A stretch of DNA of 14,238 bases from Paracoccaceae bacterium (GTDB taxonomy: Bacteria > Pseudomonadota > Alphaproteobacteria > Rhodobacterales > Rhodobacteraceae): positions 1 through 14,238 of the forward strand of contig RGAJ01000013.1 in NCBI GenBank assembly GCA_009920225.1. Direction: 5' to 3'. Under the pieces are notes generated by a model. The model did no database searches. It was not told the DNA's origin and saw nothing but the letters and a program-made list of their open reading frames with translations. The stretch's first letter is position 1. Every line of letters begins with the position of its first letter. Made by a program: the position numbers and the translations under genes. Below are positions 1,006 through 14,190 of this stretch, one piece after another.

Positions 1006-2064
1006 TTATTGAATGTCTTTTGCACGACCTGCGTTGATGTCGCCTTCGGCGGCCGCAACAGCGTCTGTCAATGCGTTAAAGATCTTGTCGCCGCCGTCTA
1101 CGTTTGCTTTGAACCAATCGTATACAGGTGCAGCAGCTTGTTTGAACGCTGCTTTTTCAGAGGGGCTTGGAACGTATAGATCACCGCCGCCCGCGACGAA
1201 GTCTGCGTAGGCTTGGATTGATTTACGCTTTGGTGACGCAAAAGTTGCCTGCTGTAGTTCGGCAAAGCCGTCTACGACAACTGTACGTAGGCCTTCAGGC
1301 ATCGCCATGAATTTGTCGTTTGACATCCACCACAATGCACCCATGTAGGCGTGACCGTCCAATGTGACGTATTGCAGACCTGCATCTGGGAATTTCATGC
1401 CCATGATGTCGGTGATACCGTTTTTAGAACCGTCAACAACGCCAGTTTGGATCGATGTGAACAGCTCTGGCCATGGAATTGGTGTCGGAGACGCGCCCAG
1501 TGCTTTGACCAATTCTTGTGGAAGGTCGGCTACAACTGTACGGATTTTCAGACCTGATAGGTCTTCTGGTTTTTGAACACGGCGTTTTGTGTTCGCAAAG
1601 TTACGCCAACCGCCTGTGTTACCAATTGTCATCAGACGGATTTTGTCGCCTGAATCTGCCAATGCCATGTCACGCATTGTGCGTGTGAAATCGCCTGACA
1701 GAACATGTTCTGCAACGCGGTCATCTGCCATCAGGTAAGGAAGGTCCAATACTTGAACGTATGGGAAGATACCTGCCGCACCGCCAGATGTCGAAATGTA
1801 TACGTCGATGGAGCCATCAGCAACACCTTGCAAACATTCTGCACCGTTTGAACACAGTTGCGTACCGATGAACAATTCAACGGCGATTGCACCGTTTGAT
1901 GCAGATTCAACATAGTTTTTAAAGACAACTAGACCGTCATAGTCTTCGTCGTTTTCATTTGAGTTTGCGGTCGCACGGATTGTGAAATCCGCAGCATTGG
2001 CCGCGATTGCACTGGTTGCCAGCAATGCTGCTGTCGCCAGTGACTTAAGAGTACCCTTTAGCAT
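1006..2064 (-). CDS. dctP: TRAP transporter substrate-binding protein, DctP family
   Basis: This is a 352-residue periplasmic binding protein of a tripartite ATP-independent periplasmic transporter. The signal peptide is residues 1-24 (MLKGTLKS then a hydrophobic segment, cleavage after ANA). The family signature is clear at residues 171-212: GLKIRTVVADLPQELVKALG, then PTPIPWPELFTSIQTGVVDG. Arg175 aligns with the conserved Arg that binds the ligand's anionic group in DctP proteins. Two cysteines (C71 and C77), where most relatives have none, could form a disulfide near the lobe interface. The ATG is preceded by an ideal ribosome site, AGGGAGG (2077-2071), suggesting high expression, as expected for the binding protein. 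It is the last gene of the minus-strand operon, 26 bases after dctM. The operon's desulfonation genes suggest an organosulfonate ligand, but the sequence does not prove it. TRAP systems for taurine, isethionate and dihydroxypropanesulfonate are known precedents. Confidence 0.93.
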   Translation of the reverse strand: MLKGTLKSLATAALLATSAIAANAADFTIRATANSNENDEDYDGLVVFKNYVESASNGAIAVELFIGTQLCSNGAECLQGVADGSIDVYISTSGGAAGIFPYVQVLDLPYLMADDRVAEHVLSGDFTRTMRDMALADSGDKIRLMTIGNTGGWRNFANTKRRVQKPEDLSGLKIRTVVADLPQELVKALGASPTPIPWPELFTSIQTGVVDGSKNGITDIMGMKFPDAGLQYVTLDGHAYMGALWWMSNDKFMAMPEGLRTVVVDGFAELQQATFASPKRKSIQAYADFVAGGGDLYVPSPSEKAAFKQAAAPVYDWFKANVDGGDKIFNALTDAVAAAEGDINAGRAKDIQ

Positions 2065-2090
2065 ATCATACCTCCCTGGTTTGCAATGGG

Positions 2091-3383
2091 TTAATTCACA
2101 AACCCCGTCAGACGGGGAATTGTCATCGAAATGGCCGGAATAAACGTGATCAAAAAGATCACGGCAACTTCGACCAGTAGGAATGGAATAATGGCTTTCG
2201 CGATGCTTTCGACACGTTCGCCGGACACCGACGACGCAACAAAGAGCACCAAGCCCATGGGGGGGGTGGCCAGACCCACGGTCAAGTTCACGCTCATGAT
2301 GATCGCGAAATGAACGGGGTGAACACCCAAATCAACAAAAATTGGCGCAAGGATCGGCCCCAGGATAATGATCGCCGGACCTGCATCCAAGAACATACCA
2401 ACCGCGAAAAGCAACAGGTTGATCAGCAACAACAAGACCAGCGGATTGTCTGACAGACCCAAGATCCAATGGGCAAGCGTTTCTGGCGCGTGGCTTAGGC
2501 TGACCACGGTTTTAAAGGCCATAGCCGCCCCAACCAACAACAAAACCACTGCAGACGTCATCGCAGAGCGTGCAAAGACATCAGACAGATCAGACAGTCG
2601 TAAGGTGCGCAGCACGAACAGACCGATGAACATGGCATATCCCACGGCGACGGCTGCGGCCTCGGTCGGGGTAAAGATGCCGCCCAAAATACCGCCCAGA
2701 ATAATGACAGGGGTCATCAATGGGAAAAATGCCTTGAGGCTGGCACCCCCGCGTTCGGACCACGTGTATTTGCGGCTTGCCACGGGGAAATCATATTTGT
2801 CGGCCATGACCTTTACTGCCAACATCAACCCAATGCCGACCAAAATACCCGGTACGATCCCTGCCAAAAAGAGCGCTGCAACGCTTTCGCCCATAACATA
2901 GGCGTAGATGATCATAATGCCAGAGGGTGGAATAATCGGGCCGATTACCGAACTTGCCGCTGTAATGGCCGCAGAAAAACGGCGGGTGTAGCCCTGTTTT
3001 TCCATCGCGGGGATCAACATGGATCCAAGCGCAGATGTATCGGCAACCGCTGACCCTGACAGGCCAGCAAACAACATCGACGACAGAATGTTCACATGGG
3101 CCAAGCCGCCGCGCAGATGGCCCATCATCGCTTGGGCGAATTCGACCAGGCGTTCGGTGATCCCGCCACGGTTCATCAATTCACCCGCCAACATGAAAAA
3201 CGGGATCGCCATCAAGGGAAAGCTGTCCATGCCGTTGTACACATTGCGGTATAGCAACGCGATGTCGCGTTCTTGGCCGTTGAGCCACAACAAGGCACCC
3301 GGCGCGATCAAAAGCGCGAAAAATACCGGCAAGCCAATGAGAAGGAATACCAAGAAGACGGGTAGAAACCAGACCAACATCAT
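2091..3383 (-). CDS. dctM: TRAP transporter large permease, DctM family
   Basis: This is a 430-residue polytopic inner-membrane protein, the usual length for stand-alone DctM, the Na+-coupled transport subunit of TRAP systems. Family markers are MAIPFFMLAGELMNRGGI near the N-terminus, IIPPSGIMIIYAY, LGGILGGIFTPTEAAA and the C-terminal ATPPMGLVLF. Hydrophobic segments fill most of the length, fitting 11-12 membrane spans. The start codon overlaps the dctQ stop by four bases (ATGA, 3383-3380), so the two subunits are translationally coupled; AGGAG precedes the start. The ATPP motif is written with a run of eight C on the coding strand (near 2259-2266), a mutable tract inside an otherwise intact frame. 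It works with the DctQ and DctP products next to it. Confidence 0.95.
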   Translation of the reverse strand: MMLVWFLPVFLVFLLIGLPVFFALLIAPGALLWLNGQERDIALLYRNVYNGMDSFPLMAIPFFMLAGELMNRGGITERLVEFAQAMMGHLRGGLAHVNILSSMLFAGLSGSAVADTSALGSMLIPAMEKQGYTRRFSAAITAASSVIGPIIPPSGIMIIYAYVMGESVAALFLAGIVPGILVGIGLMLAVKVMADKYDFPVASRKYTWSERGGASLKAFFPLMTPVIILGGILGGIFTPTEAAAVAVGYAMFIGLFVLRTLRLSDLSDVFARSAMTSAVVLLLVGAAMAFKTVVSLSHAPETLAHWILGLSDNPLVLLLLINLLLFAVGMFLDAGPAIIILGPILAPIFVDLGVHPVHFAIIMSVNLTVGLATPPMGLVLFVASSVSGERVESIAKAIIPFLLVEVAVIFLITFIPAISMTIPRLTGFVN

Positions 3384-3973
3384 TCTGCTCCTTGGCTTTG
3401 GGCGACAACTGGGATCACGGGTAATTGGTCGCGCCCCCCCAAAACGTCAATGAATTGGCGCAACAAAAGTTCCACCGTGACCAGCGTCATCAGGACAACA
3501 CCAACGAATAAAGACATGTACATCCAAGCCAATTTTAATTTGACGATCTTGTACCCAATCCAATCCAACGGAATGCGCAGGGACGATGACGCAAACAACC
3601 AGCCAGAATTCACATGGTTCCACCCCAGTTTGATGGCAAATGTCAAAACGATCAACATCATGATCAGCAAAACAATCGATAAAGTCCGAAGAACAACGGG
3701 CGCCAAGAATTGGTGAAGCGTTTCAATCGCGACAAACCCACCTTGTCGCAGTGCGATGGGGCCCATCAATCCCGTCAACCACAACATTAAAAACCGCGCA
3801 GCTTCGTCAGGCCAAGGCAGGGCGTTGTTCAAGATATATCTGCAAAACACCTGTAACAACGTCACGGCCACCATCAATGCAATAGCCACCACCGAAATAC
3901 GCTTTCCGATGGTGCCCGCAAGGGTATTCACAAATGCCAGTGGGGACAAAATCCCCAATAATAGTGTCTTCAA
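3380..3973 (-). CDS. dctQ: TRAP transporter small permease, DctQ family (TTG start)
   Basis: This is a 197-residue four-span membrane protein, the small TRAP subunit that pairs with DctM. Hydrophobic segments lie near residues 25-45, 60-78, 95-115 and 148-172. The DctQ signature is at about 41-71, with QVFCRYILNNALPWPDEAAR then FLMLWLTGLMG. The start is TTG (3973-3971), chosen because a strong GGGAGG (3986-3981) sits seven bases upstream. An ATG at 3995 is in another frame, and no other start in this frame has a comparable ribosome site. The C-terminus overlaps dctM by four bases. The 51-base gap to the flavin reductase gene contains a compact hairpin (3989-4004). The gene follows the oxidative enzymes in the same direction, so transport and catabolism are probably co-transcribed. 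Confidence 0.92.
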   Translation of the reverse strand: MKTLLLGILSPLAFVNTLAGTIGKRISVVAIALMVAVTLLQVFCRYILNNALPWPDEAARFLMLWLTGLMGPIALRQGGFVAIETLHQFLAPVVLRTLSIVLLIMMLIVLTFAIKLGWNHVNSGWLFASSSLRIPLDWIGYKIVKLKLAWMYMSLFVGVVLMTLVTVELLLRQFIDVLGGRDQLPVIPVVAQSQGAE

Positions 3974-4024: not shown

Positions 4025-4513
4025 TTACTTCAGGAAATCCCCCTGTGCGAAAATCAAAGGATTCCCTGCGTTTATTTCAAAATTATGAACTTGCCCCACG
4101 ATGATCGTATGATCACCGCCATCATGATGCGCAGATAGGCCGCATTCAAACCGCGCAAGACAGCCGTTGATAAGCGGAACATTATGTAACGACGGGGACC
4201 AGTCAACCCCCGAAAAATCATCAGCCGCCTTTGCAAACCGTTTGCACAGATCGATTTGATCTGTTGACAGGATATGGATCGCATAGTGCTGTGCGGTGGA
4301 AAACACGGGATAGCGTTTTGAATCTTTGGAAGATGACCACAAGACCAGCTGCGGATCCAAGGACACGGAATTAAAGCTGTTCGCCGTAATTGCCATGGGG
4401 CCATTTGGCCCTTGGGCTGTGACGATGGTAACACCTGTTGCAAATTGCCCCAAAGCCTGACGAAATAAAACTTTGTTATCCACTGGATATTCTTTCGCTA
4501 AAGCTTGTCCCAT
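4025..4513 (-). CDS. Flavin reductase (FMN reductase component, HpaC/SmoA-like)
   Basis: This is a 162-residue flavin reductase-like domain protein. Such enzymes use NAD(P)H to make free FMNH2 for a partner monooxygenase. Family features are RQALGQFATGVTIVTA (18-33), the FMN-binding core with AITANSFNSVSLDPQLVLWS (41-60) and the C-terminal GDHTIIVGQV (133-142). The length matches short-chain reductases such as HpaC. Its ATG overlaps the aldo/keto reductase stop by one base (TAATG, 4515-4511), so it is translationally coupled. The FMNH2-dependent monooxygenase is encoded two genes upstream in the same operon, making this the likely flavin supplier (SmoA or SsuE role, though SsuE itself is a different fold). 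Whether it prefers NADH or NADPH cannot be read. The family is certain; the pathway role is inferred from context. Confidence 0.9.
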   Translation of the reverse strand: MGQALAKEYPVDNKVLFRQALGQFATGVTIVTAQGPNGPMAITANSFNSVSLDPQLVLWSSSKDSKRYPVFSTAQHYAIHILSTDQIDLCKRFAKAADDFSGVDWSPSLHNVPLINGCLARFECGLSAHHDGGDHTIIVGQVHNFEINAGNPLIFAQGDFLK

Positions 4514-5403
4514 TATGGCACCTCGTTACCTAGGGCAGCGGTGTAAATCTCGTACCATTCTTGACGGTCTAGTTTCACATCACATGCGGTGGAAAGGGTT
4601 GCAATTCGATCAATGTTATTGGTTCCCATGACCGGCAAAATCTTCGACGGATGCGCCAAAAGCCACGCAACCGCAACCGCCGACATGTCAACACCACGAT
4701 CCGCCGCAATGCGCTTCAACGTTGCTGTGACCGTGTCATAGCCGCCGCTGAACAGCTGACCACCTGCCAAAGGTGACCATGCCATCATGGGCACTGCGTT
4801 GCGTTGGTGGAATGCCACATCACCGTTTGTGAACCCCTGATGCGCCAAAACGCTAAGTTCGATTTGGTTGGTGACAAGTGGATTTTTCATTGCTGATGAC
4901 AGCAATTCCCAATCCCACGGGCGAAAGTTCGATACGCCGACGCTGCGAACCTTGCCAGACGCGATCACCTCATCCAAGGCGGCACCCGTTTCATGGTGAT
5001 CCATCATTGGATCGGGGCGATGGATCAACAACAGATCAATGTGATCGATGCCCATCAAACGCAAGGAATGATCGACAGACGCCAAAATATGCGCGCGGCT
5101 GGTGTCATAGTATTTCACACGGGCATCCGCATAGCGGCCAACAGGGGCCACGATATCGCATTTTGTAACGATCTCGATCTTGTTGCGCAGGTCAGAACCA
5201 CGCAGCGCATTGCCCAAGATTTCTTCGGCCATATAGCCGCCATAAATGTCGGCTTGGTCCATGGTGGTGATACCTTGGTCCAAACAGGCCGCTATTTTGT
5301 TGCGCACGTGGTCTGGGGCGGTGTTTGTGTCATCGCCCAAGCGCCACAGCCCATAAACGATGCGCGAAAAATCCAATGATTTAGTGATCGATACGCGTTC
5401 CAT
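4513..5403 (-). CDS. Aldo/keto reductase, YdhF-like (candidate SmoB-type 6-oxo-sugar reductase)
   Basis: This is a 296-residue (alpha/beta)8 NAD(P)H-dependent aldo/keto reductase. The catalytic tetrad is complete: Asp49 and Tyr54 (MDQADIYGG), Lys81 (IVTKCDI) and His128 (LLLIHRPDP). The sequence resembles E. coli YdhF across its length, for example in the DHIDLLLIHRPDPMMD, GKVRSVGVSNF and C-terminal AALGNEVP regions. It sits between a sulfonate monooxygenase and its flavin reductase. Its ATG overlaps the monooxygenase stop by one base (TAATG at 5405-5401), with GGAGA just upstream. An FMNH2-dependent monooxygenase acting on R-CH2-SO3- leaves an aldehyde, so a carbonyl reductase here fits reduction of that product, as SmoB reduces 6-oxo-glucose to glucose in the sulfo-SMO pathway. 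Other aldehydes cannot be excluded. Confidence 0.9.
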   Translation of the reverse strand: MERVSITKSLDFSRIVYGLWRLGDDTNTAPDHVRNKIAACLDQGITTMDQADIYGGYMAEEILGNALRGSDLRNKIEIVTKCDIVAPVGRYADARVKYYDTSRAHILASVDHSLRLMGIDHIDLLLIHRPDPMMDHHETGAALDEVIASGKVRSVGVSNFRPWDWELLSSAMKNPLVTNQIELSVLAHQGFTNGDVAFHQRNAVPMMAWSPLAGGQLFSGGYDTVTATLKRIAADRGVDMSAVAVAWLLAHPSKILPVMGTNNIDRIATLSTACDVKLDRQEWYEIYTAALGNEVP

Positions 5404-6557
5404 TATTTCCGTTCTCCTGCGCCCAAGGGCGTCATTGGTGTTTCAGCCGGAACCCGACCGTATGCATGCGGCAACGAGCATGTTTTCATCTGTGGCAAAA
5501 CCCGAGATCCAAAGTGTTTGCATTCATCAAGATGCGGATATCCAGACAGGATAAATGCCCGAATGCCCATTTTCTGATAGGTTTCCAATTCGCTAAGGAT
5601 TTGGTCTGTCGATCCGACCAAGGCCGCCCCGCACCCAGACCGCGCACGTCCGACGCCTGTCCATAGGTGGGGTTCGATATAACCGTCCAAATCCGCCAAA
5701 TCGCGGTTTTTCGATTGATGCGACACACCCAATGATCCGCTGTCCAAGGCACGTTCACGAATAGCTTGCCCATATTCATCATCAAGCTTTGATGCGATAT
5801 AGCGGGCGTATTCCTTGGCCTCTTGTTCGGTATCGCGCACGATCACATGGACGCGCAAACCGTAATCGAGGGTGCGGTTGTGACGCGCTGCGGCTTCGTT
5901 CGCGGCTTTCATACGCTCTGCGATTTGGTCTTTGGGTTCAGGCCACATCAGATAGACGTCGCAATGTTGACCACACAATTCCAAAGCATCAGGGGAATAG
6001 CCGCCGAAATACAGCATCGGCCCGCCCTTTTGATAGGGCCTTGCGGGATCGGTTGTCAGACCTTGGAAATTATATACCTGACCATGGTAGTTGATTTCGT
6101 CTTGGGTCCAGGATTGTTTTAGAATTTCGACAACTTCGCGGCTTCTTTGATAGCGAAACGAACTGTCCGCTTTTTCACCGGGAAAATCGCTGCTGATGAT
6201 ATTGACGGTCAAACGACCTTTCATCATGTGATCCAGCGTCGCAATCGTGCGGGCCAACATGATAGGCTGCATTTCACCACACCGCACCGCGGCCAGCATG
6301 TTGATGTTTTCTGTAATGGGTGCGCAGCCCGCAACAAAGCTTAGCGTGTCTTGGCCAACTTGATAGGATGATGGGCACAAGATGTTGCGAAAGCCTTGCG
6401 CCTCGGCCTCTTTGACGATGGCGCTGCAATGTTCCCAAGATGACCGGAGATTGCCATCAGGTACGCCCAAGAATTGGTAATCGTCCGAACACAGTGCGGA
6501 AAACCATGATACCTCAACGGCATCCAAATCTGGTGATGTAATGGGCACAACTGTCAT
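5403..6557 (-). CDS. FMNH2-dependent sulfonate monooxygenase, SsuD/SmoC-like (LLM class)
   Basis: This 384-residue TIM-barrel flavin monooxygenase is homologous throughout to alkanesulfonate monooxygenase SsuD. Such enzymes use FMNH2 and O2 to cleave a C-S bond, giving sulfite and an aldehyde. Compared from memory with E. coli SsuD (numbered without Met1), Trp196, Arg226, His228, Arg297 and Tyr331 match Trp205, Arg235, His237 (YGLRVHVIVR), Arg306 (GVGRARSGCG) and Tyr340 (LSGYPHLDE) here, all offset by nine. The sulfonate and flavin pocket therefore looks intact. SsuD Cys54 is replaced; the local alignment puts Val67 there after a one-residue insertion. It is the first gene of the operon and is translationally coupled to the aldo/keto reductase. 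Its ATG at 6557 has AGGG ten bases upstream. The three-gene set points to sulfoquinovose monooxygenase (SmoC), but a simpler alkanesulfonate remains possible. Confidence 0.88.
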   Translation of the reverse strand: MTVVPITSPDLDAVEVSWFSALCSDDYQFLGVPDGNLRSSWEHCSAIVKEAEAQGFRNILCPSSYQVGQDTLSFVAGCAPITENINMLAAVRCGEMQPIMLARTIATLDHMMKGRLTVNIISSDFPGEKADSSFRYQRSREVVEILKQSWTQDEINYHGQVYNFQGLTTDPARPYQKGGPMLYFGGYSPDALELCGQHCDVYLMWPEPKDQIAERMKAANEAAARHNRTLDYGLRVHVIVRDTEQEAKEYARYIASKLDDEYGQAIRERALDSGSLGVSHQSKNRDLADLDGYIEPHLWTGVGRARSGCGAALVGSTDQILSELETYQKMGIRAFILSGYPHLDECKHFGSRVLPQMKTCSLPHAYGRVPAETPMTPLGAGERK

Positions 6558-6636
6558 GCGTGCAGTCCCTGTCTAGTTCGTTATTTTCTACTTGCGTACC
6601 ACCCAATTTGATGTAAATCAATAGTGTATCAATTTT
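6558..6636. promoter_or_regulatory. Divergent promoter/operator region between the monooxygenase operon and the gntR operon
   Basis: This 79-base gap must hold both divergent promoters. It contains TTGAT-GTAA-ATCAA (6608-6621), a perfect 5-bp inverted repeat. A third half-site ATCAA at 6628-6632 lies 11 bases, about one helical turn, after the second. The array ends four bases before the gntR ATG and is a good candidate GntR operator, giving autoregulation and control of both arms. I could not assign -35 and -10 boxes with confidence. Confidence 0.55.
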
Positions 6637-7350
6637 ATGAGTCAGAAAATGTCCATAGGTCAATCATTACCGAAATATGTGCAAATCAGTGAGATGCTGA
6701 TCCGTGATATTGCGGCGGGTCGGCTGGTGGATGGAGAACGCCTTGCGCCTGAGCGGGACATGGCAAAGTCGCTTGATATCTCTGTTGGTACGTTGCGCAA
6801 GGCGCTTGCTGATCTGGAAAGCAAAGGCGCGCTTCAACGCATTCACGGGTCTGGAAACTACATCAAAGCGCAGGCGCAGATGTCATCCATCTATTCGTTC
6901 TTTCGTGTTGAGTTGATCGCAGGGGGCGGATTGCCAACCGCAAAAGTGCTGTCAATTGGGACCGCGGAAAAACCAAAAGACTGGATCAATTCATCGCGTG
7001 ATCCGAACGCGCACCGAATCAGACGTGTTCGGTATCTAAATGGCACCCCCGCTGTCTTGGAAGAAATCTTTCTAGACGCGGGTGTCTGCCGCCAACCCAC
7101 GACCGAAGATCTGTCAGATGCTCTTTATGTCATGTATCGACGCAAGTTTAATATCTGGATCGCATCGGCCGAGGATCGATTGACGCTTCGTGATGTACCG
7201 GACTGGGCGCCTGACGAATTCGGAATGGCCCCGCACACCCAAACGATCTGTGTTTTGCGTACCAGCATGGATCAAAATAATCGCCCTGTCGAATTTTCGT
7301 ACAGTTGGATCAACACAAACGTGGCGCAATACGTTGCGCGCATTAAATAG
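6637..7350 (+). CDS. GntR-family transcriptional regulator, HutC/UTRA subfamily
   Basis: This 237-residue regulator has an N-terminal winged helix-turn-helix at about residues 10-75: PKYVQISEMLIRDIAAGRL, then the APERDMAKSLDISVGTLRKA core and the wing GSGNYI. A UTRA effector-binding domain follows at about 85-235 and usually binds a small catabolite. The position, divergent from the monooxygenase operon and eight bases upstream of the Gfo/Idh/MocA gene, makes it the likely regulator of both. The half-sites at 6608-6632 reach to within a few bases of its start, and no Shine-Dalgarno is visible before ATG 6637, so the message may be leaderless or weakly translated. A second in-frame ATG at 6649 is possible. 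The family is certain; the effector (a sulfosugar or its product) is inferred from neighbours. Confidence 0.92.
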   Translation: MSQKMSIGQSLPKYVQISEMLIRDIAAGRLVDGERLAPERDMAKSLDISVGTLRKALADLESKGALQRIHGSGNYIKAQAQMSSIYSFFRVELIAGGGLPTAKVLSIGTAEKPKDWINSSRDPNAHRIRRVRYLNGTPAVLEEIFLDAGVCRQPTTEDLSDALYVMYRRKFNIWIASAEDRLTLRDVPDWAPDEFGMAPHTQTICVLRTSMDQNNRPVEFSYSWINTNVAQYVARIK

Positions 7351-7358
7351 GACAACAA

Positions 7359-8477
7359 ATGAGTGAAGTTACCAGATACGGAATGATCGGCTGTGGCATG
7401 ATGGGCCAAGAGCATTTGAAAAATATTGCTTTGCTTCCAAATACAGCGGTCACGGCCATTTATGAACCCGATGCAAGTATGCGCGATATTGCGGCGGGCC
7501 TTGCCCCCGATGCCGCGTTTTGCGACTCTATCGACCAATTGCTGTCGCGCGATGATGTGGATTGTCTGGTGATCGTATCGCCAAACCATATGCATTTGTC
7601 CCAATTGGAACAAATCTCTACTTCGCGGCACCGTCCAATTTTGGTTGAAAAGCCTTTGTTCACGGCGGTTTCCGATATTGAGCGCATCATAACATTCAAA
7701 GAAACCTATTCGGCCCCTGTCTGGGTCGCGATGGAATACCGCTATATGCCGCCGATCACCGCGTTGAGTCATGGGTTAAAAGATGCAGTTGGCGAACTAA
7801 AGATGCTGTCCATTCGCGAACACCGGTTTCCGTTTTTGGAAAAGGTTGGCGATTGGAACCGTTTCAACGAAAACAGCGGCGGCACATTCGTCGAAAAATG
7901 TTGTCATTTCTTTGATCTGATGCGGGTGTTGACAGGGTCTGATCCTGTGCGTGTGATGGCCTCTGGCGGGCAATCTGTAAATCACCTTGATGAGGTCTAT
8001 GGCGGTAAGACATCGGATATCTGGGACAACGGGTATGTGATTGTTGATTTTGAAAACGGTATGCGCGCGATGTTGGAACTGTGCATGTTCGCCGAAGGAT
8101 CCAAGTATCAAGAAGAGATTTCCGCAATCGGCCCAATTGGCAAGATCGAAGCATTGGTCCCCGGACCTCAGCGGTTCTGGCCAGTGGACACCTTGGGCGC
8201 GCCCCCCACGCCCAAAGTCATCGAAAGCCCGCGCGATCCCAAAGGACCGATTGAACGAGAGGTCCCCGTTGATCCAACGATTTTGGCGGCAGGCGATCAC
8301 AACGGATCTACGTTTTATCAGCACCAAAAATTCTTGGAAATCGTGCGCAACGGCGGAACGCCCGAAGTTGATTTGATCGATGGCATCTGGGCGGTGCGCA
8401 TGGGGCAAGCTGCGCAAATATCTGCGCAAACAGGCCAAGCAGTTCATTTTGAGGCAGGCTGGAAAAGCAAAATTTAA
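7359..8477 (+). CDS. Gfo/Idh/MocA-family NAD(P)-dependent protein; candidate NAD+-dependent sulfoquinovosidase (GH188-like) or sugar dehydrogenase
   Basis: This 372-residue protein has a Rossmann domain with GCGMMG (11-16), the conserved EKP motif (97-99, Lys98 catalytic in the family), and a C-terminal substrate domain. The usual GG-x-L-x-D-x-G-x-H-x-x-D motif appears as GGTFVEKCCHFFD, with His183 and Asp186 kept and Glu179 replacing the usual Asp. Family members mostly oxidise a sugar or inositol hydroxyl, but some are NAD+-dependent glycosidases using transient oxidation. These include a family acting on sulfoquinovosides (GH188), whose members were first annotated as Gfo/Idh/MocA. Being next to a SmoCBA-like set makes that role attractive: release of sulfoquinovose from sulfoquinovosyl glycerol. 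I cannot confirm it, since the GH188 substrate residues are not known to me in enough detail. It follows gntR by eight bases with GGAC as a weak ribosome site. Confidence 0.85.
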   Translation: MSEVTRYGMIGCGMMGQEHLKNIALLPNTAVTAIYEPDASMRDIAAGLAPDAAFCDSIDQLLSRDDVDCLVIVSPNHMHLSQLEQISTSRHRPILVEKPLFTAVSDIERIITFKETYSAPVWVAMEYRYMPPITALSHGLKDAVGELKMLSIREHRFPFLEKVGDWNRFNENSGGTFVEKCCHFFDLMRVLTGSDPVRVMASGGQSVNHLDEVYGGKTSDIWDNGYVIVDFENGMRAMLELCMFAEGSKYQEEISAIGPIGKIEALVPGPQRFWPVDTLGAPPTPKVIESPRDPKGPIEREVPVDPTILAAGDHNGSTFYQHQKFLEIVRNGGTPEVDLIDGIWAVRMGQAAQISAQTGQAVHFEAGWKSKI

Positions 8478-8648
8478 ATGGCGGCTTAGGAAAATAATTA
8501 ATCGTCAGATTAATTAGAAATTTCTTGCCAGCTTTCCCTATTGGTGCTTTGTTAGCGGTATCGCGGACCATCGAACGGGTGGTCCGCTGATGAAAAAGGC
8601 GACAAGAGCTGTTAAAAAATGGCCGTTGCCACAATTAGGGAGAAGACA
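8478..8648 (+). promoter_or_regulatory. Leader between the Gfo/Idh/MocA gene and the ABC binding-protein gene, with two inverted repeats
   Basis: This 171-base gap precedes the binding-protein gene. AATTAAT-CGTCAG-ATTAATT (8496-8515) is a perfect AT-rich dyad of operator type. GCGGACCA-(9)-TGGTCCGC (8563-8587) is a perfect 8-bp stem with a 9-base loop, GC-rich and without a following T-run. An AGGGAG ribosome site lies at 8637-8642. The gap may hold a second promoter for the transporter or a transcript-processing site that raises binding-protein output. Neither role is proven. Confidence 0.5.
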
Positions 8649-9560
8649 ATGAAAAAATTACTACTCGCGACTGCGGCAATGGCTGTTATGGCAGGTTCCG
8701 CATTCGCAGAACGCTATGTTATGATCACCCACACACAAGGGACTGACCCATTCTGGCCAGTCGTTGAAAAAGGTGGCCGTGATGCCGCGGCAGCGATCGG
8801 CGCAGAATTTGAATACAACTTTGACCCATCTGGCGACATGTCAGGCATGGCCAAATTGATCGAAGCCGCAGCAGCATCAAACCCAGATGGTATCATCGTG
8901 TCGCTTCCTGACGCGGATGCGCTGGGCGGTGCGATTCGCGCTGCAGCGGATGCAGGTATCCCTGTTGTTACCATGAACTCTGGTCTTGAATCTTCTGCAG
9001 CTGTTGGCGCGTTGATGCACGTCGGTCAGCCAGAGCGTCTTGCCGGTGAAAAAGCAGGTGCGCGTGCGAAAGCAGAAGGCGTTACCAAAGGCCTATGTTT
9101 GAACCAAGAAGCGTTCAACACAGCGCTTGTTGACCGTTGCGAAGGGTACTTCTCGGGTCTTGGTGGCGATCTAAACATGATCGACGTATCAAACGACGTA
9201 ACACAAATCGAAACACGTACAGCGGCTGCATTGTCTGCAGATCCATCCATTGATGGCGTTTTGGCTGTCGGTCCACACGTATGTGCGGCCGCAAACAAAG
9301 CGATCAAAGATGTTGGCGCACAAGTGCATCTGGCATGTTTTGACCTATCACCAGAAGTCATGAACATGATCAAAGCGGGTGATGCGGCGTTCACCATCGA
9401 CCAACAACAACGTTTGCAAGGCTATATGCCTGTGATCGTTCTTCACCTGTACAACACAAACGCAGGCATGCTGCCAGGTGCGAACATCCCATCAGGCCCA
9501 GGCTTTGTTGATGCGTCAAACGCAGATTCAGTTGCAAGCCAAGCAGGTGTAAACCGCTAA
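8649..9560 (+). CDS. Sugar ABC transporter substrate-binding protein, RbsB/FrcB-like (CUT2)
   Basis: This 303-residue periplasmic binding protein of type I fold has signal peptide residues 1-20 (MKKLLLATAAMAVMAGSAFA). The start at 8649 is chosen because it gives this signal peptide and follows AGGGAG; a longer frame from 8619 would add ten residues before the signal. Markers of the family are the N-terminal THTQGTDPFWPVVEKGGRDA, the repeated hinge strands (DGIIVSLPDADALGGAIRAA, GIPVVTMNSG) and DGVLAVGPHVCAAANKAI. It contains four cysteines after the signal peptide. It is followed by two hairpins, then its permease and ATPase, so it is the ligand-recognition part of a CUT2 importer for a pentose, hexose or related sugar. 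Context makes a sulfosugar or sulfosugar glycoside possible; no ligand can be read directly. Confidence 0.9.
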   Translation: MKKLLLATAAMAVMAGSAFAERYVMITHTQGTDPFWPVVEKGGRDAAAAIGAEFEYNFDPSGDMSGMAKLIEAAAASNPDGIIVSLPDADALGGAIRAAADAGIPVVTMNSGLESSAAVGALMHVGQPERLAGEKAGARAKAEGVTKGLCLNQEAFNTALVDRCEGYFSGLGGDLNMIDVSNDVTQIETRTAAALSADPSIDGVLAVGPHVCAAANKAIKDVGAQVHLACFDLSPEVMNMIKAGDAAFTIDQQQRLQGYMPVIVLHLYNTNAGMLPGANIPSGPGFVDASNADSVASQAGVNR

Positions 9561-9565
9561 TTTGT

Positions 9566-9582
9566 AGTTCATAGTCTGAACT
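9566..9582 (+). other. First of two tandem hairpins after the binding-protein gene
   Basis: AGTTCA-TAGTC-TGAACT is a 6-bp stem with a 5-base loop starting five bases after the stop codon. With the next hairpin it probably protects the 3' end of the binding-protein message. Confidence 0.5.
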
Positions 9583-9585
9583 GGG

Positions 9586-9611
9586 CAGGCGGGCATTGTC
9601 CCGCCTGTTTT
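9586..9611 (+). terminator. Intra-operon attenuating terminator between binding-protein and permease genes
   Basis: CAGGCGGG (9586-9593) and CCCGCCTG (9600-9607) form a perfect 8-bp GC-rich stem with a 6-base loop, followed by TTTT (9608-9611). Such partial terminators after ABC binding-protein genes make that message more abundant than the permease and ATPase part. Enough readthrough is expected because the permease gene, only 36 bases later, shows no clear promoter. Confidence 0.7.
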
Positions 9612-9647
9612 CAAAATAGAAACTCATAATTATAAAACGGGGAAACC

Positions 9648-10841
9648 ATGTCGGAACGGAGTGAATCTGACCGCCTGCAAAGGGAATCTTGGGCAAGACG
9701 TATGGTTCGACGCCCAGAAATTGGGTCGTTCATCGTGATGATCATCATCATTTTAGCCCTTGCAGTCGCGTCCGAAGGTAAAGCGTTTAACGCGCTTGGT
9801 TTAAAGAATAACATCGCCATTATTTCACAGCTTGGCATCATTGCCGTTGGCGCGGCCTTGTTAATGATTGCGGGTGAATTTGACCTGTCAATTGGGCCGA
9901 TGATTGCCTTTGCAGGTATGTCGATCGCATTGATGATGAAATGGGGTCTGCCCTTTGGCATGGGCGAAGCAACGCCATTTTTGGCGTTTCTCATTACCTT
10001 GTGTATGACCTTGGCTTTTGGATGGTTGATCGGCAACATTGTCGTTCGATCTGGTCTATCAAGCTTTATTGTCACCTTGGCCTTTTGGTTTTTCCTGCGC
10101 GGTCTAACCGAAGTGTGCTTTCGTTTGATCAACCAAAACACCAACGTTTCCGGCCTGCCTGATTTCAAACAACAGAGCTGGTTTGCCGATCTTATGGGGG
10201 GCGAAGTATTCGGATGGTTCTTTAGCGCGTGGTACTGGATCGGAACAAAGATCTCGGCCGGTGTGGAAATGACGGGCGATATGACCCGTGAACAAACCAT
10301 TGCGATGATTGATTACCTAAGCTTTTTGAACATCAACCGCAAAATGGAAATGTGGGTGACAGGCTTTGATGCGCGGTTGCTGTGGTTCATTATTATTGCG
10401 GGCGCTGCATGGTTCGTTTTGGCAAAAACGCAATTGGGCAGCTGGATTTACGCGACTGGTGATAACAAAGAAAGCGCGCGCGCCAATGGTGTGCCTGTCG
10501 ATCGCGTTAAAATCGGCTTGTTCATGTTTTCGGCCTTTTGTGCGACAATTTTTGCCACATGCCAGGTGTTTGATACCAACTCATCTGACGCGGCCAAGGG
10601 TATGTTCAAAGAGCTCGAAGCCATCGCAATCGCGGTTGTGGGCGGTATTTTGATGACCGGTGGCTTTGGATCGATTGTTGGCGTGATCTTTGGTGCGGTG
10701 ACTTTTGGTCTCGTGGCGAACGCTGTGTTCTTTATCCCATGGATCGATGGCGCATGGTTCCGTGTCTTCGTTGGTACCGTGTTGTTGGCCGCTGTGTTTG
10801 CAAACGAACGCATTCGCAAACGTATCACAGGGGGGATTTGA
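9648..10841 (+). CDS. Sugar ABC transporter permease, CUT2 family (RbsC/FrcC-like), enlarged
   Basis: This 397-residue inner-membrane permease of the BPD_transp_2 family has GEFDLSIG (76-83) in place of the common G-x-DLS-x-G, SGLSSFIVTLAFWFFLRG (135-152) and the cytoplasmic coupling loop GDNKESARANGVPVDRVK (271-288). It is longer than the roughly 320-340 residues usual for RbsC. The extra length is a poorly hydrophobic stretch at about 160-240, including SGLPDFKQQSWF and a DMTREQTIAM segment, which would lie between two membrane spans, probably on the periplasmic side. FrcC-type permeases are also longer, so this may be a subfamily trait. GGGGAAA precedes the ATG. The gene ends two bases before the ATPase start, so the two are co-translated. 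Confidence 0.92.
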   Translation: MSERSESDRLQRESWARRMVRRPEIGSFIVMIIIILALAVASEGKAFNALGLKNNIAIISQLGIIAVGAALLMIAGEFDLSIGPMIAFAGMSIALMMKWGLPFGMGEATPFLAFLITLCMTLAFGWLIGNIVVRSGLSSFIVTLAFWFFLRGLTEVCFRLINQNTNVSGLPDFKQQSWFADLMGGEVFGWFFSAWYWIGTKISAGVEMTGDMTREQTIAMIDYLSFLNINRKMEMWVTGFDARLLWFIIIAGAAWFVLAKTQLGSWIYATGDNKESARANGVPVDRVKIGLFMFSAFCATIFATCQVFDTNSSDAAKGMFKELEAIAIAVVGGILMTGGFGSIVGVIFGAVTFGLVANAVFFIPWIDGAWFRVFVGTVLLAAVFANERIRKRITGGI

Positions 10842-10843
10842 TC

Positions 10844-11617
10844 ATGACACAACAAGCTTATATGCGCGTTGAAAACATCGTCAAACAATTTGGCCCCTTT
10901 ATGGCGTTGAATGGCGTCAATCTGGATGTGTATCCGGGTGAAGTGCATGCGCTGTTGGGGGACAATGGCGCAGGCAAGTCAACCTTGATCAAGATCTTGT
11001 CAGGCGTTCATCAACCCACCAGTGGTACGATCTATATCGATGGCAAGGCCCGAACATTTCGCAATCCCCGCGATGCTGCATCTGCAGGGGTTGGTACCGT
11101 GTATCAAGATTTGGCGATCAATCAATTGATGAGCGTGACGCGGAACTTTTTCATGGGGCGCGAATTGAAGTCCAAATTTGGCATTCTGCGCATGGATGAA
11201 ATGAACCAAATCGCGCATGATGAAATGCTAAAGATCGGGATTGATTTCTCTGACCCGACCCAAGCGGTTGGCACGATGTCAGGGGGACAACGTCAGACCT
11301 TGGCCATTGCGCGCGCGATTTATTTCGGGGCAAAGGTTTTGATTTTGGACGAACCGACATCGGCGTTGGGTCAAAAACAACAGATGGAAGTTTTGAAAAC
11401 CATCAAACGTGTGCGTGCCCGCGGTGACATTGCGATCATCTTTATCACGCATAACGAAATCCATTCAAAGCTTGTCGCGGATCGGTACACTTTCTTGGCA
11501 CTGGGTCAGGTTATTGGATCAGGCCCCAAGGCCGAAATCGAAAGCCAAGATATCCGTCGGCTCATGGCAGGCGGGGCTGAGATGAAGGACTTGGAACAGG
11601 AACTCGCCCATATCTGA
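10844..11617 (+). CDS. Sugar ABC transporter ATP-binding protein, single-domain FrcA-like
   Basis: This 257-residue ABC ATPase starts at ATG 10844; a longer frame from 10739 lies inside the permease gene and lacks homology, so it is discarded. Walker A is GDNGAGKST (39-47), the Q-loop glutamine Gln88 (VYQDL), the signature MSGGQR (145-150), Walker B VLILDE (165-170) and the H-loop His203 (ITHNE). All nucleotide-binding elements are intact. CUT2 ATPases such as RbsA carry two ABC domains, whereas this has one, as in the rhizobial fructose transporter FrcBCA, so the transporter would use a homodimer. The C-terminus after the H-loop is short, with no regulatory domain. It is the last gene of the operon, 16 bases before a strong terminator. 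The product energises import by the binding protein and permease upstream. Confidence 0.93.
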   Translation: MTQQAYMRVENIVKQFGPFMALNGVNLDVYPGEVHALLGDNGAGKSTLIKILSGVHQPTSGTIYIDGKARTFRNPRDAASAGVGTVYQDLAINQLMSVTRNFFMGRELKSKFGILRMDEMNQIAHDEMLKIGIDFSDPTQAVGTMSGGQRQTLAIARAIYFGAKVLILDEPTSALGQKQQMEVLKTIKRVRARGDIAIIFITHNEIHSKLVADRYTFLALGQVIGSGPKAEIESQDIRRLMAGGAEMKDLEQELAHI

Positions 11618-11731: not shown

Positions 11732-12988
11732 CTAACCGATAATTGCCGCGTGATACTTTGCCAAAACATCTTGCACCGCGCGGATCAAAACCGTTTCTGC
11801 ATCAGGATCATCGTCTTGCACGCTTAGCCCGCCCAAGAATTGACCAATCAACGGCGCGGGTATTTTGCGGTTCTTGAGACGCGCGAATACGCGATCAACG
11901 GCCTGTTTCGCACCATCGGTCCCCCAGTAATAGCGAATGCGGTCCGACAGGCTGTAATGACGTTGAAAGAATTGTGTGACTTCGCTTCCGGAATAGTATT
12001 TAGCCCAGTTGTTTGGCGCAGATTGCATTTCGGTTTCCATCGCGGTCATCAGTTCGTTTTGCGGCGACTGACCGTCCAAAATATCTGCAATCGCGTCCAA
12101 TCCATACAGAGCCTCGCGCAGCGCATAGGTCAACCAAGGTCCAACTTTTAGAATTGCAAAACCGTGATTCACCAACGCGCGTAGATTGGTGGTGGTTTGA
12201 TAGTCCGTGGAATGGGCTTCGAAAACCAAATTGGGATAATTGCCCAAGCTTTTTGAAAGGGCCTTGGCCTTTGCGGCATCGAAATGAATAACGTCACTAT
12301 GGCCGAATTCAACACCGGGCTGGACAACGACGCCGATCACACGGCGAAATGCGTCGGCCAGACCCAGTTCCAAAAACGCGTTGCGATGCACTTCGATCGT
12401 TGTAGCGACAGAGGCAGGCGTGGTTAACTCAATCACGTCCAGTGCGTGATCAGCCCCACCCGGAACGGGAACTTCGGTGCCAATGATGTACACGGGGGGT
12501 ACAGGCATCGCCTGCGTTTCCGCCGCTGCCGCCAATCTTGCGGCACGGGCAGCCGTCGTCGCATCGTCAAGCGCAACCGGTTCGCCCGCGCATCCCATCG
12601 ACGTATCAAGATGAAGCTTGGTAAACCCCGCACGTGCATAGGCGACGATCATGGCCTCTGCCTTGTTCATAGCTTCGTCCGCAGGCAGGTCTTTCCACGG
12701 GTTTGGCCCCAAATGGTCACCTCCCAGAATGATCTGTTCGCGTGGACATCCAATTTCATCGGCAATGCGAAATACAAAATCGCGAAAATCGGTAGGCGTC
12801 ATGCCTGTATATCCACCATCTTGGTTGACTTGGTTACAGGTCGCCTCGATCAAAACGGGGGTACGTGTGTCCCGCCCATGCAAGAGCGCCGATTTGATCA
12901 CAATCGGATGTGCCGAACACACCGAGGTAATGCCAGAATGGACACCTGAATGGAACGAACGCGGCAACGCATGCAATACATCAGTCAT
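11732..12988 (-). CDS. KbaZ/GatZ-family protein (tagatose-bisphosphate aldolase 'non-catalytic subunit' family, possible sugar-phosphate 4-epimerase)
   Basis: This is a 418-residue protein with the full family pattern: SGITSVCSAHPIVIKSAL near the N-terminus, VLIEATCNQVNQDGGYTGM, LGGDHLGPNPW, LHLDTSMGCAGEPV, GTEVPVPGGAD, VVVQPGVEFGHSDVIHFD, FEAHSTDYQT and KVGPWLTYALREALYGLD. Length matches KbaZ and GatZ (about 420). In E. coli these proteins support the catalytic class II aldolases KbaY and GatY. Here no KbaY/GatY gene is next to it, so it may act alone. A homologue in Agrobacterium was reported as a D-tagatose-6-phosphate 4-epimerase, and conserved His, Asp and Glu residues make a metal-dependent epimerase plausible. 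AAGGGA precedes the ATG. It converges on the ABC operon and shares its terminator, and it diverges from the FAD oxidoreductase. A link to the sulfonate genes is not shown. Confidence 0.88.
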   Translation of the reverse strand: MTDVLHALPRSFHSGVHSGITSVCSAHPIVIKSALLHGRDTRTPVLIEATCNQVNQDGGYTGMTPTDFRDFVFRIADEIGCPREQIILGGDHLGPNPWKDLPADEAMNKAEAMIVAYARAGFTKLHLDTSMGCAGEPVALDDATTAARAARLAAAAETQAMPVPPVYIIGTEVPVPGGADHALDVIELTTPASVATTIEVHRNAFLELGLADAFRRVIGVVVQPGVEFGHSDVIHFDAAKAKALSKSLGNYPNLVFEAHSTDYQTTTNLRALVNHGFAILKVGPWLTYALREALYGLDAIADILDGQSPQNELMTAMETEMQSAPNNWAKYYSGSEVTQFFQRHYSLSDRIRYYWGTDGAKQAVDRVFARLKNRKIPAPLIGQFLGGLSVQDDDPDAETVLIRAVQDVLAKYHAAIIG

Positions 12989-13125
12989 TTGCTATCCCTT
13001 TGTCTTTTCCGCGCTAACCTATGAAAGATCTCAGACAAGGTAAACGATAAAGCGGTTTCGAAAATTCGTTGAACTGGCGTTTGTTTGTGGCCTATGGTCA
13101 TGGCGATGAACGAGCGGGGTTTTGC
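12989..13125. promoter_or_regulatory. Divergent intergenic region between the KbaZ-like gene and the FAD oxidoreductase gene
   Basis: This 137-base region must carry the promoters for both divergent genes. AGGGA (minus strand, near 12996) serves the KbaZ-like gene and a weak GCGGGG lies before ATG 13126. I see no clear palindromic operator. An upstream in-frame TTG at 13069 would lengthen the oxidoreductase by 19 residues that do not resemble its family, so I treat this stretch as non-coding. Confidence 0.4.
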
Positions 13126-14190
13126 ATGACAAAATCGGTCATGGTGATTGGTGCAGGTGTTGTTGGGCTTGCCTGTTCGCGGGCGCTGGCAATAGCGGGC
13201 TATGACGTTGTGATTGTTGAAAAGCACGCCTATATCGGAACCGAGGTCAGCGGCCGAAATTCCGGCGTGATTCATGCAGGGATTTATTATCCCCAAGGAT
13301 CTGCCAAGGCGCGGTTTTGTCTGCGCGGCAAACAGCTGATGTATCAATATTGTGCCGATCATGACATTCCCCACCGCAATACGCAAAAGCTGATCGTTGC
13401 GACAAATTCTGCCCAAGACGGAATTTTGCAAAAGTTACAAAAAACGGCGGCGCAAAACGGTGTGATATTGGATTTGATTTCAGGGGCTCAGGCGATGGCG
13501 CTTGAACCTGAATTGTATGCGACCTCTGCATTGGTGTCCGCAACCACGGGTATCGTCGATGTGCATGGTCTTTTGTTTTCCCTACTTGCCGAGGCCGAAG
13601 CGATGGGCGCAGTTTTGTCAACACAGACATGTGTGTCCCAAATTCTGCGAACACCGCAGGGTTTGCATGTTACGGGCAACAGCATGGGCGCGGCATTCGA
13701 AATGAGTGTTGATATGGTGGTCAATGCGGCAGGTCTGGGCGCGCCGCAATTGGCCGCGACTTATTGGCCAGATGCGCCAAAGCCGCCAGCACTGTTTGCG
13801 AAAGGCAATTATTTTTCAATCGCTGGATCACTGCCATTTCAAAGGTTGATTTATCCCGTTCCGGAACAGGATGGTCTGGGCATCCATTATACCCTAGACC
13901 TGAATGGACAAAGCCGATTGGGTCCAAATGTGCGCTGGATCGATACGCCGAACTATGACGTTGATGTGGATGCCGAAGATCTGTTTCGCGATGCAGTCAA
14001 ATCCTATTGGCCAAATGTCCAAGATCGCGCTTTGTCGCCCGATTACGTGGGGATCCGACCGAAAATCGAAGGCGGAGATTTCGTCATACGCCGTGATGAT
14101 CGTATCATCACGCTGCTTGGTATTGAGTCCCCGGGTTTAACATCTTCGTTAGCGATTGCCGAACATGTCACAGCGTTGGCGCAGGCCTAA
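13126..14190 (+). CDS. FAD-dependent oxidoreductase, L-2-hydroxyglutarate oxidase/dehydrogenase (LhgO)-like
   Basis: This 354-residue flavoprotein of the DAO superfamily starts at ATG 13126, where the Rossmann motif falls at residues 9-14 (GAGVVG) with the ribose-binding Glu32 (VEK). Strongly LhgO-like signatures are SGRNSGVIHAGIYYPQGSA (42-60), the DIPHRNTQKLIVAT segment, VNAAGLGAP, GIHYTLDLNGQSRLGPNVRW and the C-terminal GIRPKIEGG and GIESPGLTSSLAIAEHV. The family oxidises L-2-hydroxy acids to 2-oxo acids and passes electrons to the respiratory chain, usually at the membrane surface. It is somewhat shorter than E. coli LhgO (about 400), with the loss spread over loops and the C-terminus intact. 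It diverges from the KbaZ-like gene. The substrate is unproven: L-2-hydroxyglutarate by family, some other 2-hydroxy acid by context. Confidence 0.85.
   Translation: MTKSVMVIGAGVVGLACSRALAIAGYDVVIVEKHAYIGTEVSGRNSGVIHAGIYYPQGSAKARFCLRGKQLMYQYCADHDIPHRNTQKLIVATNSAQDGILQKLQKTAAQNGVILDLISGAQAMALEPELYATSALVSATTGIVDVHGLLFSLLAEAEAMGAVLSTQTCVSQILRTPQGLHVTGNSMGAAFEMSVDMVVNAAGLGAPQLAATYWPDAPKPPALFAKGNYFSIAGSLPFQRLIYPVPEQDGLGIHYTLDLNGQSRLGPNVRWIDTPNYDVDVDAEDLFRDAVKSYWPNVQDRALSPDYVGIRPKIEGGDFVIRRDDRIITLLGIESPGLTSSLAIAEHVTALAQA

Follow-up and report, generated by a model that had tools for sequence, protein, structure and literature searches.

Organisation of the locus

The 14,238 bp of contig RGAJ01000013.1 (assembly GCA_009920225.1, Paracoccaceae bacterium), referred to here as the window, carry a cluster of genes that is predicted to take in, release, and desulfonate the sulfosugar sulfoquinovose (SQ). 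On the reverse strand a monooxygenase is followed by an aldo/keto reductase and a flavin reductase, and then by the genes of a tripartite ATP-independent periplasmic (TRAP) transporter. Divergent from these are a GntR/UTRA-family regulator and a predicted GH188 sulfoquinovosidase, with an ATP-binding cassette (ABC) transporter of the CUT2 type beyond them (Table 1). The source genome is small, at 2.4 Mb, and is 92% complete in 586 contigs.

Table 1. Features of the window, in order of position.
Feature	Position	Strand	Basis
TRAP solute-binding protein (P), predicted to bind sulfoquinovose or SQ-glycerol	1006..2064	-	PF03480
TRAP large permease (M)	2091..3383	-	TIGR00786, 437 bits (cut-off 268)
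TRAP small permease (Q)	3380..3973	-	position; homologue after flavin reductase in 61/80 loci
smoA-like flavin reductase, 162 amino acids; predicted supplier of reduced flavin	4025..4513	-	PF01613 (Flavin_Reduct); linkage
smoB-like aldo/keto reductase, 296 amino acids; predicted to convert 6-dehydroglucose to glucose	4513..5403	-	Pfam Aldo_ket_red; PDB 7bby/7bbz
SmoC-like FMNH2-dependent sulfoquinovose monooxygenase (predicted), 384 amino acids	5403..6557	-	Pfam Bac_luciferase; PDB identities; tree
Conserved element TTGATACACYATTGAT(YTACA), putative GntR operator	6612..6632	-	conserved between gntR and smoC
GntR/UTRA-family regulator, divergent from smoC	6637..7350	+	PF00392 and PF07702; in 79/80 loci
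GH188 NAD+-dependent sulfoquinovosidase, sqgA-like (predicted; Gfo/Idh protein)	7359..8477	+	PDB matches; active-site residues
CUT2 ABC sugar-binding protein, role uncertain	8619..9560	+	best PDB 4ru1, 177 bits
CUT2 ABC permease, role uncertain	9648..10841	+	75% identical copy in L083
CUT2 ABC ATPase, role uncertain	10844..11617	+	PF00005; 91% identical copy in L083
GatZ/KbaZ-like protein	11732..12988	-	
FAD oxidoreductase, nearest L-2-hydroxyglutarate oxidase	13069..14190		209 bits (cut-off 299)

The window was compared with 80 related loci, which are the best of the confirmed matches in the genome collection (551 or more); being the top of these matches, the set over-represents close relatives. 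A separate sample held 198 genomes drawn evenly from one family. The regulator accompanies smoC in 79 of the 80 loci and the GH188 gene does so likewise in 79, and in the family sample smoC is found in 88 genomes and GH188 in 104, with both in 86. The annotations of Ruegeria sp. TM1040 and Rhizobium sp. SL42 show the same layout, including the TRAP transporter.

A preliminary description of the window had recognised the monooxygenase, aldo/keto reductase, and flavin reductase between 4025 and 6557, in that order and joined by two one-base overlaps, and all of this is confirmed: neighbouring open reading frames overlap by a single base, at 5403 and at 4513, in each case within TAATG. The overlap of smoC with the aldo/keto reductase gene is seen in 68 of the 80 related loci. 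The aldo/keto reductase is downstream of smoC in every one of them, and the flavin reductase is present in 77, one of the three loci without it (L059) being a sequence that stops at that point. Because the linkage and the overlap recur across the related loci, the arrangement of the trio is not a matter of chance. The gene order had been called reversed, yet it is the usual order among these relatives and in Rhizobium sp. SL42, and is therefore not special to this genome. That the host would be a marine member of the Rhodobacterales agrees with the closest loci, which are mostly from marine Rhodobacterales such as HIMB11. The divergent regulator, the sulfoquinovosidase, and the likely operator had been overlooked.

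The predicted desulfonation enzymes and sulfoquinovosidase

The best PDB matches of the monooxygenase are 7olf (723 bits) and 7oh2 (706 bits), both over the full length, against 197 bits for MsuD (7jv3), 184 for SsuD (1nqk), and 99 for SfnG (8t0u). Over 383 alignment columns it is 79.1% identical to 7olf and 77.0% to 7oh2, while the figures for MsuD and SsuD are 33.4% and 32.6%. We take 7olf and 7oh2 to be the SmoC enzymes described in work on the sulfoquinovose monooxygenase (sulfo-SMO) pathway. There are 115 diagnostic columns at which these two structures share one residue and SsuD and MsuD share another; the window protein has the SmoC-type residue at 96 and neither residue at 14. In a maximum-likelihood tree of 32 rows (the window, 23 of the 80 loci, four plasmid loci, and four structures), SsuD and MsuD are separated from all other rows with support of 100/100. 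The window protein lies inside the group that contains 7olf and 7oh2, where it groups with HIMB11-like marine Rhodobacterales with modest support (88/94).

The alternative would be an ordinary sulfur-scavenging operon of the SsuD/MsuD type, acting on alkanesulfonates, with an unrelated aldo/keto reductase alongside. The monooxygenase does belong, distantly, to this superfamily: it shares with SsuD and MsuD the bacterial luciferase-like family and an R-x-H motif (GIRLHVIVR in those enzymes, GLRVHVIVR in the window), it matches the SsuD equivalog TIGR03565 with 235 bits, and it is the sole match to that family in its own genome at E <= 0.001. That score is below the model's cut-off of 518, however, identity to SsuD and MsuD is 33% compared with 77–79% for the SmoC type, and where SsuD has the motifs PTHGDG and PTGRSCED the window has the SmoC-type ALCSDD and PSSYQVGQD. 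The SsuD-type residue is present at five of the 115 diagnostic columns. The alkanesulfonate operon was rejected on the PDB scores, the diagnostic columns, and the tree, and with a GH188 gene linked in 79 of 80 loci it is barely credible. A grouping of the monooxygenase with SsuD, MsuD, or SfnG, which the preliminary description had named as a result that would refute the sulfosugar reading, is therefore not what the sequences give: tree and identities place the protein with the SmoC structures and apart from SsuD and MsuD, and SfnG is set apart by score alone.

A relative of SmoC with 52.5% identity is encoded at 6489–7664 of L105, from a plasmid of Emticicia (Bacteroidota), next to a sodium/solute symporter and a GH95 gene. 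The gene table of this locus, which is incomplete, has no aldo/keto reductase adjoining it, and its substrate may differ.

The aldo/keto reductase is closest to 7bby and 7bbz, with 420 bits over the full length, followed by 4r9o (206 bits) and YdhF (203 bits). It has the same motifs as 7bby, which are DQADIY (from residue 49), TK (80–81), and H128, presumably the carriers of the catalytic tetrad.

The protein encoded at 7359–8477 scores 524 bits against 8zn9, and 368 and 365 bits against the GH188 structures 8qc2 and 8qc3, with the next family at 59 bits. The match is full length, at 64% identity to 8zn9 and 49% to ArSqgA. An identity as inositol dehydrogenase was rejected, the best such match reaching 59 bits against 365–524 for GH188-type structures. 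No paper on 8zn9 was found in the literature search; its place with GH188 is deduced from this alignment. The residues around sulfoquinovose in ArSqgA have been catalogued by Kaur et al. 2023 (PMC10755693, in the available part of the text) and were mapped onto the window protein through the 8qc3 chain. The active-site residues Lys107, Tyr136, Glu163, Glu189, His193, and His321 are all kept, as K98, Y127, E154, E179, H183, and H314, as are those of the sulfonate site, Arg166, Leu170 (through its backbone), and Lys172, as R156, L160, and K162.

The catalytic and sulfonate-contact residues are also kept in 100 out of 100 aligned loci, of which 99 are distinct, one contig having been counted twice (L002 and L082). 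For this count, Glu163 of the paper is taken to be the Glu at the next position (164 in the numbering used), which is likewise fully kept. What separates the window protein from GH188 SqgA (8QC2/8QC8, 8QC3/8QC5/8QC6) and 8zn9, with which it has 49–64% identity, is ordinary sequence divergence. There is no GH31 match in its own genome, as far as the 92% complete assembly goes, which fits GH188 as the sulfoquinovosidase. The sulfoquinovosidase of Agrobacterium, in contrast, belongs to GH31.

Considering the enzymes together, the window would be a sulfo-SMO cluster of the Roseobacter type that takes in, frees, and desulfonates sulfoquinovose, to which we give a probability of about 0.93. A SmoC-type monooxygenase, a SmoB-type reductase, and a sulfoquinovosidase (GH188) are all present, and the earlier identification of a SmoCBA-like operon for sulfosugar desulfonation is supported by these comparisons. 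The likeness to the Agrobacterium and Novosphingobium sulfo-SMO systems (sulfo-ASMO; SmoA, SmoB, and SmoC) includes the 77–79% identity of the monooxygenase, the 420-bit match of the reductase, and the adjoining flavin reductase.

Several observations weigh against this reading, in addition to the five SsuD-type columns. The names of 7olf, 7oh2, and 7bby in the PDB are generic, and the first two are SmoC, and 7bby SmoB, on our assumption. The flavin reductase is nearest to models of the FerA/HpaC type and falls below the cut-offs of all eight NCBIfam models that it matched; it is only 43–65% identical across the 80 loci, and it is called smoA-like because of its linkage. The Agrobacterium cluster has an ABC transporter for SQ-glycerol, according to the available part of PMC9594981. 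The transporters in the window are of the TRAP type and of the CUT2 ABC type, which would stand in for the Agrobacterium SmoEFGH importer.

In the proposed pathway, the TRAP transporter at 1006–3973 would be the most likely entry route for SQ-glycerol or free SQ. The GH188 enzyme would open the glycoside to give SQ by a cycle of NAD+-dependent oxidation, elimination, hydration, and reduction, as has been proposed for its homologues. Reduced flavin mononucleotide (FMNH2) would be made by the flavin reductase, and with it and O2 the SmoC-like enzyme is predicted to split the C-S bond of SQ, forming sulfite and 6-dehydroglucose, which the SmoB-like aldo/keto reductase would convert to glucose; both reactions have been shown for homologues. 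A glucokinase encoded outside the window would probably then phosphorylate the glucose; the genome has a match to the glucokinase family over model positions 57–311 of 314. The genome also has one match to PF00174 (molybdenum oxidoreductase), which could be a sulfite-oxidising enzyme or SoxC.

The cluster might instead act on another sulfosugar or sulfoglycoside, such as sulfofucose or a sulfosugar acid. Its substrate is deduced from homology, there are two transporters in the window, and sulfofucose pathways exist in Paracoccus (PMC12421959). As described in the available part of that same source, however, sulfofucose clusters use ABC systems and other enzymes, and in the window the sulfonate triad and the SQ contacts of GH188 are kept and the monooxygenase has its 77–79% identity to the SmoC type, so that a different substrate is very unlikely.

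The TRAP transporter as a candidate importer

The three TRAP components are encoded in one operon, and the binding protein has arginines at R154 and R175, as in a TRAP transporter. These two are among the 122 positions that are invariant in 80 sequences (the window and 79 loci), and we take them to be the functional arginine positions of TRAP binding proteins. The comparison as a whole had 81 rows, 79 of them distinct; a more distant TRAP protein (L101, 49%) was excluded from the invariant count. Of the 75 related loci that are informative (five more are too short to judge), 60 have the transporter downstream of the trio, and in Rhizobium sp. SL42 and Ruegeria sp. TM1040 the small permease is annotated at the same place.

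Within the family sample the TRAP binding protein is found in 73 of the 198 genomes, 70 of which also have GH188. Fisher's test gives this co-occurrence an odds ratio of 62 and p = 2e-23, which is a rough guide only, because the genomes are related. In 54 genomes the transporter occurs together with smoC, in 50 of these no more than 10 kb apart on the same contig and in four on different contigs. The remaining 19 TRAP-bearing genomes are without smoC, and 17 of the 19 have GH188.

Loci from 17 of these 19 genomes were analysed, G016 and G143 being excluded with TRAP and GH188 on separate contigs. In 13 of the 17 there is a fucose-isomerase-like sulfoquinovose isomerase, a PfkB kinase, and GH188, with an aldolase of the DeoC/LacD type in 12 of the 13, and the TRAP transporter is a close relative of that in the window. 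This gene set is read as being of the sulfoglycolytic Embden-Meyerhof-Parnas (sulfo-EMP) type; it was named from Pfam and NCBIfam matches for L085 alone, the 12 further loci being assigned by tblastn, and the L085 isomerase matches the SftI-type model NF048012 with 258 bits, below its cut-off of 700. Between 64 SMO-linked and 13 EMP-linked binding proteins, a comparison that excluded L089, L096, L100, and L101, there is no fixed difference at any position, with 90% as the threshold.

The binding protein was also modelled, with a mean predicted local distance difference test score (pLDDT) of 76. Residues 153–159 and most of 199–229 score below 50, and the ligand pocket is therefore not readable. 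In a Foldseek search the best E-value belongs to IseP (8t9t, 8te9), the binding protein of an isethionate TRAP transporter and thus a sulfonate binder, which shares the solute-binding fold; other TRAP proteins score nearly as well. The identity to IseP is 22%, and the expected substrate in the window is a C6 sulfosugar. Further close folds are binders of sugar acids, sialic acid, and dicarboxylates, so that the model would fit many acidic ligands. The structure alignment of the binding proteins covered 32 of the 81 sequences.

The position after the trio in 60 of 75 loci, and the close relative in 13 smoC-less loci with GH188 and sulfo-EMP-type genes, make this transporter a good candidate for import of SQ or SQ-glycerol. 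We favour, with some reserve, the interpretation that it is a dedicated importer of one or both, that it would be the main entry route in marine Roseobacter-type bacteria, and that it forms with GH188 a paired module exchanged between sulfo-SMO and sulfo-EMP pathways.

Against this there are several observations. The transporter is missing from 15 of the 75 informative loci, 11 of which have an ABC cassette of the CUT1 type in the locus (one type in five loci, and another in six, where it is complete or cut by the locus end), leaving four with neither; in Marinovum algicola DG 898 an ABC cassette accompanies the trio and TRAP is lacking. The same-genus locus L082 (genome G001) has neither TRAP nor CUT2. 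Of the 88 family genomes with smoC, 34 have no match to the TRAP protein, and three of the 73 with TRAP have no match to GH188. An interaction between arginine and carboxylate is described as restricting TRAP binding proteins to carboxylates, in the available part of PMC4646407. It is thus possible, if the less probable case, that the TRAP transporter lies there as a neighbour and carries a different substrate, such as a C4-dicarboxylate or a sugar acid, as its nearest solved folds might suggest, and that SQ enters through the CUT2 transporter or elsewhere. The candidacy of TRAP as the SQ importer has on its side the proximity to smoC in 50 of 54 genomes, the association with GH188 in loci of a second pathway, and the lack of any fixed difference between the binding proteins of the two pathways.

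The other four of the 17 loci are L101, with its more distant TRAP, and three that combine these genes differently. L089 (G058, 7400–9750) has TRAP, GntR, GH188, and both the flavin and the aldo/keto reductase; smoC is missing from the gap, roughly 270 bases long, and was not found elsewhere in the G058 genome at E <= 1e-100. L096 (G160) has TRAP, GntR, and GH188 without the SMO trio, and L100 (G066) has only a flavin reductase and TRAP.

Close to the TRAP binding-protein gene, 45 of the 80 SMO loci and 11 of the 13 sulfo-EMP-type loci (L085–L088, L091, L092, L094, L095, and L097–L099) encode a small Sel1-repeat protein (495–974 in the window), which may be a conserved companion of the transport system. 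In 11 of the 60 TRAP-bearing loci (L019, L034, L047, L055, L061, L062, L066, L068, L075, L078, and L080) some 60 inserted residues, near query residue 204–217, interrupt the match to the large permease.

Regulation, flanking genes, and relation to known clusters

A 16-bp element, TTGATACACYATTGAT, is found between gntR and smoC in all 80 related loci, in 61 of them exactly, in 15 with one mismatch, and in four with two. In each of the 80 it outranks every other site in the locus, and in 62 it ends 54–60 bases before smoC. The window copy, at 6617–6632, has no mismatches. With up to three mismatches allowed, the number of sites expected by chance in the window is 0.28, and the case for the element therefore rests on its conservation and position. 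For a 21-base version (6612–6632), a search of the genome allowing up to three mismatches gave no second site. Since the loci are related, shared descent may account for some of the conservation, yet the flanking intergenic sequence varies. The element is also kept, with one mismatch, in L089, which lacks smoC. It is likely to be the operator of the GntR protein, which would probably control both divergent arms through it.

The CUT2 transporter 3' of GH188 appears to be a local addition. None of the 80 related loci has a counterpart with at least 38% identity, and in none of them does a GatZ/KbaZ-like gene follow GH188 with such a transporter; the transporter (at 75–95% identity) and GatZ are present in L083, of the same genus, and CUT2 is not at this place in L082, also of that genus. 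Its binding protein scores below the cut-off of the rhizopine-binding model, and no tie between this transporter and sulfoquinovose was found. It may be a second importer or a mere neighbour.

GH188 is described as near-universal in the sulfo-SMO clusters of marine Roseobacter bacteria by Kaur et al. 2023, in the available part of PMC10755693, and the sulfo-SMO pathway as prevalent in the Roseobacter clade, in that of PMC13372026. The core of the cluster is for this reason already known: the window has the same enzymes and the same GH188 linkage, with no difference found in the core and with CUT2 added. It would be one more member of a published type, and the part that may be new is the prediction of SQ as the substrate of the TRAP importer. 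A link between TRAP and sulfoquinovose is proposed in none of the titles and abstracts of the literature searched, which is not to claim that it is absent from print.

The cluster itself thus adds one more genome to a known kind. About 10 billion tons of SQ are produced per year, and Roseobacter GH188 enzymes are thought to contribute to its marine turnover (PMC10755693, available part). What could be useful here are the testable predictions of how SQ enters the cell, through a TRAP system common to two unrelated pathways, and of a pathway-switching operator. If the prediction for TRAP is true, these bacteria would have a sodium-driven route for this sulfosugar, in contrast to the ABC importers characterised to date, which are ATP-driven, and the range of TRAP substrates, until now carboxylates and small sulfonates, would come to include a C6 sulfosugar.

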